From positions 1-48,878 of the forward strand of contig JAGWAC010000002.1 of assembly GCA_018302125.1 (NCBI GenBank): a stretch of DNA of 48,878 bases, written 5' to 3'. The position numbers and the translations under genes are program-made. This DNA comes from Candidatus Woesearchaeota archaeon. Its GTDB lineage: Archaea; Nanobdellota; Nanobdellia; SCGC-AAA011-G17; JACPIM01. Below are positions 8,057 to 48,706 of the stretch, piece by piece. Each line of letters starts with the position of its first letter. Position 1 is the first letter of the stretch. The notes beneath the pieces are model-generated. The model worked only from the letters and a program-made list of their open reading frames with translations, searched no databases and was not told the origin of the DNA.

Positions 8057-8130
8057 GCCCTCATAACTCAGTTTGGGAGAGTACCGTCCTCGTAAGACGG
8101 AAGCCCTGGGTTCGAATCCCAGTGGGGGCT
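8057..8130 (+). tRNA. tRNA-Thr (CGT), intronless
   Basis: Acceptor GCCCTCA/TGGGGGC, anticodon stem CCGTC/GACGG with loop CTCGTAA, T arm CTGGG-TTCGAAT-CCCAG. Confidence 0.95.
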
Positions 8131-8991: not shown

Positions 8992-9103
8992 GCCCCGGTA
9001 GCTTAGTCAGTTATAGCGCCACCTTGGTATAAACTTTTAAAGAAAGTTTAATCAAAAATAAACAAAAAGGTGGAGGTCGAGAGTGCAATTCTCTCCCGAG
9101 GCT
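8992..9103 (+). tRNA. tRNA-Thr (GGT) with 38-nt intron at 37/38 (9030-9067)
   Basis: Anticodon stem CCACC/GGTGG, spliced loop TTGGTAA; T arm GAGAG-TGCAATT-CTCTC; acceptor GCCCCGG/CCGAGGC. Confidence 0.92.
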
Positions 9104-29450: not shown

Positions 29451-29690
29451 CTACAATTTTAACTTTTTTAACTTCTTCTGATTTTGCAAAAAATCTTCTA
29501 TTTTTATATCTAAGCACTTTTTTCCTTGAAAAGTATAAGGCACAGCCACCTTGCTAAAAAAATAATCGCCACCTGAACTTTTAAAATGAGCTCCTTCTCG
29601 TGTATCTTCTAATTGAAACAACTTTCCCCGATATAGATATATTCCAGGATCCATATAAATAAAATATTTTTTAATTATTATCCCTTGCAA
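29451..29690 (-). CDS. Hypothetical small protein
   Basis: 79 aa ORF between cobW-like gene and rtcB. Confidence 0.5.
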   Translation of the reverse strand: MQGIIIKKYFIYMDPGIYLYRGKLFQLEDTREGAHFKSSGGDYFFSKVAVPYTFQGKKCLDIKIEDFLQNQKKLKKLKL

Positions 29691-32683
29691 TTTCCTATTG
29701 GCAAAAAACGAACTACTGGTTTTGATATGCCTGCTAAATGAGTTGACTTAATTACTTCATTAATATCTTTATAGCTTTCTCCAGTCTCTTCAGCAGCTCC
29801 TCTTAAAGAAGTAGACCTAATGTAAATTCCTTTTTCCTTCCAGAGATCATCTAAATATTTTTTAATATCTTTTCCAAAAATTCTGGCAGCCTTATTTCTA
29901 GACATTGTACGTCCTGATCCATGTGCTGTTGAACAAAATGTATTTTTTGAATCCTCAGTTCCAGCTAATAAATAACTACCTGTTGACATTGAGCCTCCGA
30001 TTATTATCGGAGATCCATCTTCTCTGTATTTTTTAGGAATTTCTTTTCTTCCAGGATAATAGGCTGCAGTTGCTCCTTTCCTATGAATTAAAAGTTTTTT
30101 ATTTTTTCCATCTATTTTATGTTCTTCTAAAGAGGCTCTGTTATGGGCAATATCAAATACTTGTTTCATTCCCAAACTTTCTGCATCTTTTTTAAAAATC
30201 TCGCTGAAAACTTCTCTTATTCTATGAGCAATAGTTTGCCTGTTTGCAAAACTAAAATTAACTGCACAAGCCATAGCTCTCCAATAATCTTGACCTTCTG
30301 GAGAATTAAATGGCGCACAGGCTAATTCTCGATCTAATATTTTTATATTATACTTTCTATCCATTACATCTAAGAAAACTCTTAAATAATCCGTGGCAAT
30401 TTGATGTCCCTCCCCCCTAGAACCAGTGTGAAACATTATAACAATTTGCTCTGGAAAGATTCCCCATTTTTTTGCTAATTTTTTATCAAAAATGTTTTCT
30501 TCTTTTACTCTTTGAATTTCTAAATAATGATTTCCTGAACCTAAAGTTCCAATTTGATTATATCCGCGATCAATTGCTTTTTTTGAAATCTTTGAAACAT
30601 CAGCCCAATCAGCTTTTCCATTTAATTCAGTTACTTCTAAATCTTCTTCCCAACCATATCCTTCTTTAACTGCCCAATGTGCTCCACCTTCAAGAACTTT
30701 TAAAAACTCTTGTTTGTCTATTTTTACAAAGCCCTCTCCACCAACTCCAGCTGGAACTCTTTTAAATAGAGTATCAACTATATTTTTAAGATGAGGTTTA
30801 AATTGATCATAAGTTAAATTAGTTAATAATAGTCTCATACCACAGTTAGATATAATAAAATTATTAGCAATAAAATTGTGATCCTTATGATTTATAGTAA
30901 AATCATAAACTTCTGTACTATCTTCAACTTCTTTAATTGACTCAATTTCATCCCAAACATAATCTCCACCATTTTTTAATCCGTATTTCAATATAAATTC
31001 ATTAAATGACAAGAAGAAATTCTTAGAAATACGTGTTTCTATATTTTTACAATTATTATATAGTCTCGATTTAATTAAACTAGAACTAACATTATTATCT
31101 TCAGCATATCTTAATATTTGTGCTTGTACTAATCCATTATTTTTTAATTGGAAGGAGTTTTCAACGATAGTATCTATTTTATTTAGAATTGCTTTTTTAA
31201 ACTTGAGATATTGTAAAGATAATAAAGAAAGACGTTTTTTATCTTCGCAATATTCAAAACCAATTTTACCCCATAAATTTATCAAATTATCCGTTGTCGA
31301 AGATAATTTTAAGATGATTTTGATAGTTTCTTCTCCAAATTTATTTATTACTCCTTTTTGCTTGTAGATCTTAGTACAATCTATATTAAATTCTTTAAGT
31401 AAATCTTTTATTTCTTGAAGAAACTCTTTTAAACTATTTTCTAAGGCTAAAATCTTATTTTGACTGAAACTAGGCTCTTTAAAACGATATTTTTCGTTTT
31501 TCGCCTGTATTGGAGAACTCATTTCTGCTCCGAATAATCCCGATAAATAAAGCCTTTTTATCCATAAAGGACTTTCTTTGATCCATTTGGGAAGAAAAAT
31601 TGGATTTCGCGATTTATTTTTTTTAGGTACTCCCAAAGCGTGAAGCAACACAGCTAAAGATTGACTAGTGATTGATAATTGTGTCGACTCTCCACAAATT
31701 ATTCTCTTGTTACCACCGATCTCTTTAACTGTACTCGAATAACTTTTTGTTTTAATATGTGAAGCTTTGAATCCTAATTTTTTTAAATCATCAATTATTT
31801 GAAGTAAATTTTCTTTTTTACCAATTGCTCTAATCGCCCATTGGTTTCTATTTCTTTTTCTATTATAGGAATAACCTAACCAACCGTCTCCACTAAGAAA
31901 ACCTATAAGTTTCGTCAAAATTGGTAATTTTTCAGAATTTAAAGTTAAAGGAAGTAATTTTCTTTCTTTTAATATATTCACAATTTTTTTATGATCTGGA
32001 GAGATTTTTTTTATATTATCTTCATCTAAAATAACTTTATCGTTAACCGCTTCATAAGGTACACCATCAAAAGGGTATACTGCTAGAAAATGTTTTTTTA
32101 AAATTAAATCTTTAACTTTTATCATTCCTTCATTTGTATAAAATGGATGATCCGTTGTTGCGACTATTTTATAATCACTTTTGGTTTTTATTTCAAAAAT
32201 CTTTGATCCTATTTCTTTTTTTAAAAACAGTATTGGTTTTGTTGATATCTCTTTTTGAGCTTCAAAATAAATTGATTTTGTATTGATATGCTTGTTATTT
32301 AGAAAATCTTTAATAAGTACAGTATAACCGTATTCTCCAATTATCTTAGAATCTCCATTGATGCAGTTGACATCAAAACCAATACCGCCAGGACTAATTA
32401 CTCCTTCATTTTCTACATCAAATGCAGCTACACCACCAATTGGAAAACCGTAACCCCAGTGACCATCAGGCATACAATAAGCTGGATTTACTATACCAGG
32501 AAGAGTTGCTACATTAGATATCTGGTCAAAAACACCAGAATCCATTTCTTTAATTAATTTTTCAGATGCAATAATTCTTGCTGGAACTCGCATTCCTTTT
32601 TTAAAAGAAGATGGCAATTCCCAAACAACATCTGAAATTTTCTTAATTTCTTTTGGCGGACCTAATCTTGTTTCTTCTTCCAA
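29678..32683 (-). CDS. rtcB: tRNA-splicing ligase RtcB with intein
   Basis: Exteins GFDVN-CGMRLLLTN, GTLGSGNHYLEIQ, MFHTGSRGEGHQ, SMSTGSYLL, HGSGRTMSR. Confidence 0.96.
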   Translation of the reverse strand: MEEETRLGPPKEIKKISDVVWELPSSFKKGMRVPARIIASEKLIKEMDSGVFDQISNVATLPGIVNPAYCMPDGHWGYGFPIGGVAAFDVENEGVISPGGIGFDVNCINGDSKIIGEYGYTVLIKDFLNNKHINTKSIYFEAQKEISTKPILFLKKEIGSKIFEIKTKSDYKIVATTDHPFYTNEGMIKVKDLILKKHFLAVYPFDGVPYEAVNDKVILDEDNIKKISPDHKKIVNILKERKLLPLTLNSEKLPILTKLIGFLSGDGWLGYSYNRKRNRNQWAIRAIGKKENLLQIIDDLKKLGFKASHIKTKSYSSTVKEIGGNKRIICGESTQLSITSQSLAVLLHALGVPKKNKSRNPIFLPKWIKESPLWIKRLYLSGLFGAEMSSPIQAKNEKYRFKEPSFSQNKILALENSLKEFLQEIKDLLKEFNIDCTKIYKQKGVINKFGEETIKIILKLSSTTDNLINLWGKIGFEYCEDKKRLSLLSLQYLKFKKAILNKIDTIVENSFQLKNNGLVQAQILRYAEDNNVSSSLIKSRLYNNCKNIETRISKNFFLSFNEFILKYGLKNGGDYVWDEIESIKEVEDSTEVYDFTINHKDHNFIANNFIISNCGMRLLLTNLTYDQFKPHLKNIVDTLFKRVPAGVGGEGFVKIDKQEFLKVLEGGAHWAVKEGYGWEEDLEVTELNGKADWADVSKISKKAIDRGYNQIGTLGSGNHYLEIQRVKEENIFDKKLAKKWGIFPEQIVIMFHTGSRGEGHQIATDYLRVFLDVMDRKYNIKILDRELACAPFNSPEGQDYWRAMACAVNFSFANRQTIAHRIREVFSEIFKKDAESLGMKQVFDIAHNRASLEEHKIDGKNKKLLIHRKGATAAYYPGRKEIPKKYREDGSPIIIGGSMSTGSYLLAGTEDSKNTFCSTAHGSGRTMSRNKAARIFGKDIKKYLDDLWKEKGIYIRSTSLRGAAEETGESYKDINEVIKSTHLAGISKPVVRFLPIGNCKG
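30845..32365 (-). mobile_element. RtcB intein (507 aa, LAGLIDADG-type)
   Basis: CINGDSKIIGEYG; VATTDHPFY; LIGFLSGDGWL; YLSGLFGAEMSS; VYDFTINHKDHNFIANNFIISN then Cys+1. Confidence 0.95.
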
Positions 32684-47216: not shown

Positions 47217-47910
47217 TTAGAATTCTTTTAGAGATTTCTGTTTTTTTTGCTCATCCAAGACTTTAAATGTAGACCACGATCTTCTTATAAATTCAGGATA
47301 TTTGTCAAAATTTTCCTTTAAGAATTTCTGACATACTGGATTGCTAGAATAACCAGAACCAATTGATTCTTTTGTTATTTTTTCAATTTCTTCCACTTCT
47401 TTTTCTCTTTCGCATTTTGCTATTATACTAGCTGCAGCTACAGGCATATGTTTTTCGGCGCGATGTTCAATTACTAATTGAGTAGTTTCTAATAATTCTG
47501 GATCAAGAAGTTTCTTTAAATAATTAGTATAGGCGTTTATATTCGGACTAGGGCAATCAATAATCATTTTATGGGGTTTTAACTGATTAATTATTTCAGC
47601 TTGTTTTTTTGCTTCAAGCCAATTAAGATTAAAACCATTGTCATCTGAAACTGCTTCGTCTATTTCTTTTGGCTTAACTTGTATTATTTTAATTTCAACT
47701 GCTAACTTTTCTATTTCTTTTGACAACTCTTTTCTTTTTTTATGTGTTAATAATTTAGAATCTTTTACTCCAATTTCTTTTAATTTAGGAACATCTTCTT
47801 CATTAAACATAGCCCCAACTAGGAACAAAGAACCGACGCAAGGACCTTTCGGGGAATTTTTAAAAAATTTCTCTCCCGCTTTCATCGATTCCTAGTATTT
47901 TCTGCCCCAT
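47217..47910 (-). CDS. rnhB: RNase HII, interrupted by a candidate 25-nt BHB intron (47848-47872)
   Basis: Spliced N-terminus MGQKILGIDESGR-GPCVGSLFLVGAMF; later MIIDCPSPN and ASIIAKCEREKE; spliced length 669 nt = 222 aa. Confidence 0.85.
47848..47872 (-). other. Candidate BHB-type mRNA intron in rnhB
   Basis: CGGG/CCCG 4-bp central helix, 3-nt bulges AGA and AAA, inner A/T helix; canonical cuts remove 25 nt and rejoin the frame. Confidence 0.75.
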
Positions 47911-48160
47911 TTGCGTTAATCTCCACCAATCTTCATATTTTTCTATTAGGCCTTCTTTTTCATAAGTCTTAAATCTTTTGCTTACCATTTTTCCACTTAA
48001 ATTTAATTCTCTTCCAATTTTTGCTAAATTTTTTAGTTCAATTAGTTTTAAAATATTCTCCCTTTCTATTCTTAGAATTTCTTCCTTTTTGCTTTTCAAT
48101 ATCCAAAAAGTTTTTCCATTACCGTTTTGATTTTTTATATAATCAGTTTTATTTTCTGAT
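47870..48160 (-). CDS. wHTH domain in frame with RT remnant, overlapping the rnhB start
   Basis: ILRIERENILKLIELKNLAKIGRELNLSGKMVSKRFKTYEKEGLIEKYEDWWRLTQMGQKIL. Confidence 0.55.
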
Positions 48161-48706
48161 TTATGATTATTTAAAATTCTTTTTATTAACCAGATAATCT
48201 TTTCATCTTTAATTCTTCTCTTTATTAATTTTAATAAAATTTCATGATCTACTTCATCAAAATAATGTTTTAGGTCAGCCTTTAAAATACAACCTTTAAT
48301 AGTTTGTTCGCCCCCCCCCCACAATCTTTCTTTTGAAGAGATCGAATCTCTCTATGGCTTTTAAAGTTCCTTTAGTTTTTTTGTTCGCAAATGAATCATA
48401 AATAAATAATCTTTCAAAGATAGGACCAATTATATTGATTAATACATGATGAACTATTCTATCCCTAAAATGCGATTTGCTTATTTTTCTAATTTTAGGA
48501 TCTCTTAAAATAAAAGTCTTTAATGGTCTTGGTTTGTAAGAATACAACAATAATTCTGTCTGCAGTTCCAATAGATTTTCTTCCAGATTTTCTTCAAAAT
48601 CTATAACATATTTTTTTAAAGTTTTATGTTTTCTTGCTTTTTCAAAAGCATATTCAATATTTTCAAAAGAACAAAGATAAGGCCATAAATTGTTGTAGGT
48701 TTTCAT
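48160..48706 (-). pseudogene. DGR-type reverse transcriptase fragment, frameshifted at G10 and truncated
   Basis: HFRDRIVHHVLINIIGPIFERLFIYDSFANKKTKGTLKAIERF in one frame, CILKADLKHYFDEVDHEILLKLI in another; no YxDD motif. Confidence 0.8.

Follow-up and report, generated by a model that had tools for sequence, protein, structure and literature searches.

The locus raises the question of how an RNase HII gene (rnhB) that is broken within its active-site motif might still encode an enzyme. The window that we analysed is an entire contig of 48,878 nt, and belongs to an archaeal genome of 829 kb that is 97% complete. On the minus strand, rnhB starts with ATGGGGCAGAAAATACTAGGAATCGATGAAAGCGGGAG (47910-47873), continues with AGAAATTTTTTAAAAATTCCCCGAA (47872-47848), and then resumes as AGGTCCTTGC, so that the 25-nt insertion claimed in a first-pass annotation of this DNA is present exactly as described. 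Left unspliced, the frame that reads GIDESGR runs into a stop directly after REIF, as had also been stated there, while the program-called ORF starts at 47885 in another frame and is devoid of the GIDES residues, the catalytic Asp included. With the 25 nt removed in silico, the complete catalytic motif is restored within an RNase HII of 222 aa, whose match to TIGR00729 rises to 160.2 bits (profile positions 1-205) from the 141.7 bits (from position 9) of the unspliced ORF, and which aligns over its full length with solved RNase HII chains (for example, 1uax). We regard it as almost certain that the 25 nt are an archaeal bulge-helix-bulge (BHB) pre-mRNA intron in rnhB, though splicing itself is inferred, there being no RNA or enzyme data for these organisms, which are known from metagenome-assembled genomes. 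The same reading had been offered by the first-pass annotation, and it is now strongly supported by recurrence at the same codon, covariation of the pairing, the restored protein, and the presence of a splicing endonuclease and RtcB. This would mean that gene finders misannotate such proteins by placing the start after the catalytic Asp.

As for the structure, the window copy meets the BHB criterion of two 3-nt bulges on either side of a 4-bp helix, and by the endonuclease rule each such bulge is cut after its second base (PMC2738675). Much of the fold drawn in the first-pass annotation holds, namely the CGGG/CCCG helix, the AGA and AAA bulges, and an inner helix, which here reads GAA/UUC, but it needs qualifying in two respects. 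First, the strict hBHBh' criterion is not met, as no continuous outer exon helix adjoins the second bulge and at most one exon-exon pair adjoins helix H; the motif is therefore classed as relaxed (H-B-h'). Second, the single-sequence fold of the window copy is by itself not significant (z = -0.75), and so the proof rests on comparison between copies. Moreover, a search of Rfam 15 gave no match at the intron site at E<=1. The features are listed in Table 1.

Table 1. Features of the rnhB locus, and related features of the same genome, with the grounds for each assignment
Feature	Position	Strand	Basis or remark
rnhB exon 1, 38 nt	47873..47910	-	MGQKILGIDESG + AG (first two letters of Arg codon); match of the spliced protein to TIGR00729 starts at position 1
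rnhB intron, 25 nt, BHB type	47848..47872	-	AGAAATTTTTTAAAAATTCCCCGAA; in-frame TAA on readthrough; same-codon introns at 46 loci
rnhB exon 2	47217..47847	-	Third letter of Arg codon, then GPCVGSLFLVGAM... to stop; ORF call and TIGR00729
Central helix H, 5' strand CGGG (exon)	47875..47878	-	Pairs with 47850-47853; covariation
Central helix H, 3' strand CCCG (intron)	47850..47853	-	Covariation
Bulge 1 AG^A, predicted 5' cut after second base	47872..47874	-	Geometry and canonical endonuclease rule (PMC2738675)
Bulge 2 AA^A, predicted 3' cut after second base	47847..47849	-	Geometry and canonical endonuclease rule (PMC2738675)
Intron hairpin with inner helix h' (GAA/UUC and A/U helix)	47854..47871	-	Helix 2 covaries, 36 sequences
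Exon-exon helix (predicted), exon 1 side	47883..47893	-	Fold; not contiguous with H
Exon-exon helix (predicted), exon 2 side	47828..47838	-	Fold; pairs with 47883-47893
RtcB RNA ligase	29678..32683 (window)	-	Interrupted by intein
cbf5 intron, 22 nt	L187 6999-7020 (G000:C6)	-	GHSGTL/DPGVTG, between letters 1 and 2 of catalytic Asp codon
P-loop gene intron, 20 nt	L180 8957-8976	-	GGRD/FHNF

Comparison with other archaea was carried out at several depths. An RNase HII family search of 60 relatives returned several genes that begin only at profile position 8-9 or contain stops, and reading these revealed ten further insertions of 21-32 nt exactly at the GIDEAG[R]GP codon, with most of the other relatives having a plain, uninterrupted GIDEAGRGP. 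A covariance model built from 11 sequences was run on 103 genomes of the order, and gave full-length matches (61-74 nt) in 21 of them, intronless genes matching the same model over 42 nt; ten more loci came from a covariance search of other orders of the class, and seven from a phylum sample searched with a 36-sequence model. Further loci emerged when 84,980 named genomes were scanned with a DNA pattern, and these are labelled Woesearchaeota, Aenigmatarchaeota (two), Nanohalarchaeota, two unclassified archaea, Bathyarchaeota, and Thermoproteota. Taken together, the profile and pattern searches place an insertion of 19-41 nt in this Arg codon at 46 loci, 38 of them in genomes of the window's phylum and the other eight being named loci from the pattern scan. 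Excluded from this count are weak profile matches at 58-75 nt in six genomes (G091, G068, G071, G023, G059, and G005), which represent ribosomal protein L11 (KASAAPPLGPALGPL) or arose by chance, and about 20 DNA-pattern matches in bacterial and some archaeal records, whose translation shows that they are not rnhB. In the Thermoproteota case, mis-binning is unlikely, as ribosomal-protein genes, cmk, and cbf5 are neighbours on the same contig, an arrangement known from Crenarchaeota. The adjacent cbf5 ORF of this record (L134:1825-2586) also begins only at MTGVLP, and this gene probably carries a cbf5 intron too, near the rnhB intron. All inspected insertions bring an in-frame stop or a frameshift and, at 19-41 nt, fall into all three length classes modulo 3; they are short, lack a homing endonuclease ORF, and in every inspected case the predicted cuts give back the protein.

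This recurrence bears directly on whether the 25 nt could be an assembly or sequencing error, or the mark of a decaying pseudogene. Such a reading might draw on the broken reverse-transcriptase-like gene just upstream, and on a relative (G025) in which an intact intronless copy is accompanied by a decayed one with the intron. Nevertheless, dozens of assemblies made by different laboratories have the same-site insertion independently of one another, so that the relatives rule out assembly error, and the pairing covaries (see below). Furthermore, the rnhB coding sequence is otherwise intact, and a genome-wide search found RNase HII in single copy and no RNase HI in the 97% complete genome, making this its sole RNase H gene; the state that would have refuted an intron, an intact second RNase H together with decay at this locus, is thus not what the genome holds. 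We find error or decay hardly credible.

The pairing is conserved among copies. Across 36 aligned copies, 97.2% of the cells of helix H and the intron helix are paired (96.5% for H and 97.9% for h'), with 106 double changes observed against 28.8 in shuffles, and a covariation score of 0.914 against 0.182 +/- 0.028. Sliding the structure by 1-3 columns lowers this score to <=0.172. While the 36-copy alignment is biased towards the structure, having been fitted to it, a MAFFT alignment of 11 copies made earlier carries the same signal (0.682 against 0.218 +/- 0.052), and the free minimum-energy fold includes the H core in 31 of the 36 copies. In nearly all copies the Arg codon is split AG/R, with the exceptions of CG/A in G073 and, by hand reading, a cut moved by one base in G026 and G099. 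Alternatively, ribosomes might pass the insert during translation, either by programmed +1 frameshifting (e.g., at UUU UAA) or by bypassing. In fact, a +1 shift at TTT TAA would connect both frames in the window copy, and RNA structure can accompany frameshift motifs. Readthrough, however, would add about eight residues to the GRG active-site loop, and a protein read in this way reaches 124.4 bits, compared with 140.1 bits when spliced. The other copies, with lengths of 3n, 3n+1, and 3n+2 and differing stops, have no common slippery site. Bypassing, moreover, does not need the conserved pairing, which is the exact bulge geometry of the endonuclease. Recoding of this kind is, in our judgement, very improbable.

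Beyond the core motif, the two exons are complementary between the GIDE and PVIG codons, and this complementarity extends further in genes with the intron than in those without it (7.5 bp versus 5.6 bp; Mann-Whitney p = 0.0009, uncorrected for kinship). When seven independent tree pairs are considered, 4.8 are for the longer helix and none against it, with a median p of 0.06, and so the difference is suggestive only.

With the BHB intron as the preferred reading, removal from the transcript would proceed as follows. The end of exon 1 (CGGG) is predicted to pair with CCCG near the 3' end of the intron, the intron itself would fold into a hairpin, and a 3-nt bulge would be left at each splice site. 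Both bulges would then be cut after their second base by the tRNA-splicing endonuclease, and the exons joined by RtcB, whereby the Arg codon in the catalytic GRG motif would become whole; cutting and joining alike are inferred. Since translation of an unspliced message would stop after a few codons, splicing is required for active RNase HII. The genome meets the host criterion, encoding both a splicing endonuclease and an RtcB ligase, the latter being the likely exon ligase for rnhB. Only one splicing endonuclease gene was found, of 195 aa, with the catalytic subunit of Nanoarchaeum equitans as its nearest PDB entry; relaxed motifs are thought to require heteromeric or loop-bearing endonucleases, which counts against the intron reading. 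Many tRNA genes in the genome have introns. Within the window, Rfam reported only a tRNA-Thr at 8057-8130 as tRNA, and an intron-bearing tRNA candidate at 8992-9103 (+), missed by the default tRNA search, was seen with ARAGORN when introns were allowed. As a separate observation, the intein of RtcB is about 500 aa long with a weak LAGLIDADG match, and so this RNA-splicing ligase itself needs protein splicing.

The introns also differ from chance in their stops. In the reading frame, 26 of 28 introns contain a stop, as against 15 and 13 in the other two frames, and shuffled interiors give 15.3 +/- 2.6 (p = 0.0002); all nine introns of length 3n carry one. The excess is perhaps inflated by shared descent. 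Here, it could be argued that the intron is mainly regulatory, with inefficient or conditional splicing and a retained intron that shuts off RNase HII. The enrichment of stops in the reading frame would fit, as would the position near the start codon and within an active-site codon, and negative regulation has been raised for cbf5 by Yokobori et al. (PMC2738675). Yet early stops may merely prevent toxic or frameshifted products, and scar-free absence is frequent in close relatives, by which the intron is dispensable. We consider a mainly regulatory role unlikely, without dismissing it.

Mapped onto an 86-row RNase HII tree, intron presence needs 19 changes, versus 29 when shuffled, at least ten of the 19 being on well-supported branches. 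Many sister genes are intronless without a scar, as exemplified by G077 with the intron and G041 without. In G025 (loci L071/L111 and L049), an intact intronless rnhB coexists with a decayed intron-bearing copy that has an internal deletion, suggesting gene replacement or mixed binning. The rnhB intron may be ancient, or may have arisen more than once at this site, and would have been precisely lost many times; a single ancient gain with many losses and repeated gain at one site are both possible.

The same genome would appear to use this device in cbf5 and one more gene. We scanned the whole genome for BHB motifs whose removal restores a reading frame, and rnhB and cbf5 were among the best candidates. 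A loose BHB scan of the genome gave more than 1000 candidates, mostly gene ends beside gene starts, and of the 21 from a like scan of the window all except the rnhB one are chance; a candidate overlapping Elp3 (L152:17243) is antisense to a real gene. After inspection of the genome-wide candidates, only rnhB and two other convincing cases were left, these being cbf5 and a conserved P-loop gene. The cbf5 intron of this DPANN genome is shared by about 12 genomes of the order (G002, G030, G063, G083, G084, G039, G057, G062, G028, G076, G078, and G091). The P-loop gene is also interrupted at its GGRD/FHNF site in G017 and G028 (L264 and L253); its product, which by its motifs resembles cyclic 2,3-diphosphoglycerate synthetase, has only a marginal CobW match in profile libraries. 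The position of the cbf5 intron is exactly that described for Crenarchaeota (PMC2738675). The rnhB intron is not its homologue, residing in another gene of a genome that has a separate cbf5 intron.

Among known systems, the closest is the cbf5 pre-mRNA intron of Crenarchaeota, a BHB intron of 16-44 nt for which splicing has been shown by cDNA (Watanabe 2002; Yokobori 2009, PMC2738675), a proof that rnhB does not have. Both introns are short, have a relaxed motif, split a catalytic-site codon, and show lineage-specific losses, and for both splicing by endonuclease and RtcB is presumed. Unlike in cbf5, the rnhB intron lies in the Arg codon of the GRG motif, and it is far wider spread (DPANN phyla, Bathyarchaeota, and Thermoproteota). 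Archaeal tRNA introns share the BHB recognition and the enzymes, and have similar A/U-rich hairpins in the host genome, but the rnhB intron sits in a coding mRNA, pairs with protein-constrained codons, and is enriched in in-frame stops. Selection for in-frame stops exists in eukaryotic short introns, where premature stops, as in rnhB, would flag retained introns, though the splicing machinery is different and a benefit of early stops in archaea is untested. In Haloferax HVO_1309, BHB cleavage takes place in the 5' UTR (PMC7714728); here too the splicing endonuclease acts on an mRNA, but in 5'-UTR processing and not on an intron inside a coding sequence.

A 2020 study states that cbf5 is the only archaeal protein-coding gene with an intron (PMC7714728), and in the open-licence literature searched we found no archaeal protein-gene intron other than that of cbf5, in rnhB or elsewhere, which agrees with the earlier suggestion that rnhB is a new intron-bearing mRNA; a report that we have not seen is possible. 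The intron is of a known kind; what appears to be new is the gene that holds it, its distribution over several phyla, the excess of in-frame stops, and the several introns per genome. A second intron family that is spread much more widely and lies in a DNA maintenance gene of the essential type, together with a third one in this genome, would make archaeal pre-mRNA splicing a recurrent part of gene structure. Repeated gains, or exact losses, at a single codon allow the origin and disappearance of BHB introns to be studied, and the excess of in-frame stops and the exon helix at codon level open selection on archaeal introns to direct tests. Only tentatively, and with doubt outweighing belief, do we put forward that BHB pre-mRNA introns are a general and dynamic archaeal class rather than a peculiarity of cbf5, residing in ultra-conserved active-site codons of several genes per genome, with a selected early stop (no protein unless spliced) and an exon-exon helix built from synonymous codons, thereby tying RNase HII and Cbf5 expression to tRNA-splicing capacity.

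Two further observations concern the ends of the rnhB frames. The broken reverse-transcriptase-like gene upstream (window 47860-48324 and 48296-48706, minus strand), which was called by eye and has no reverse transcriptase match in Pfam, leads without a change of frame to a winged-helix stretch (a match to HTH_45 that stays below cut-off) and then into rnhB exon 1; it may be a fused N-terminus or the remnant of an insertion beside rnhB. Reverse transcription is one route proposed for intron loss. At the other end, the RNase HII frames in L033 and L040 (G002 and G005) are 691-703 aa long with a profile match that ends at about position 161, and are possibly C-terminal fusions.
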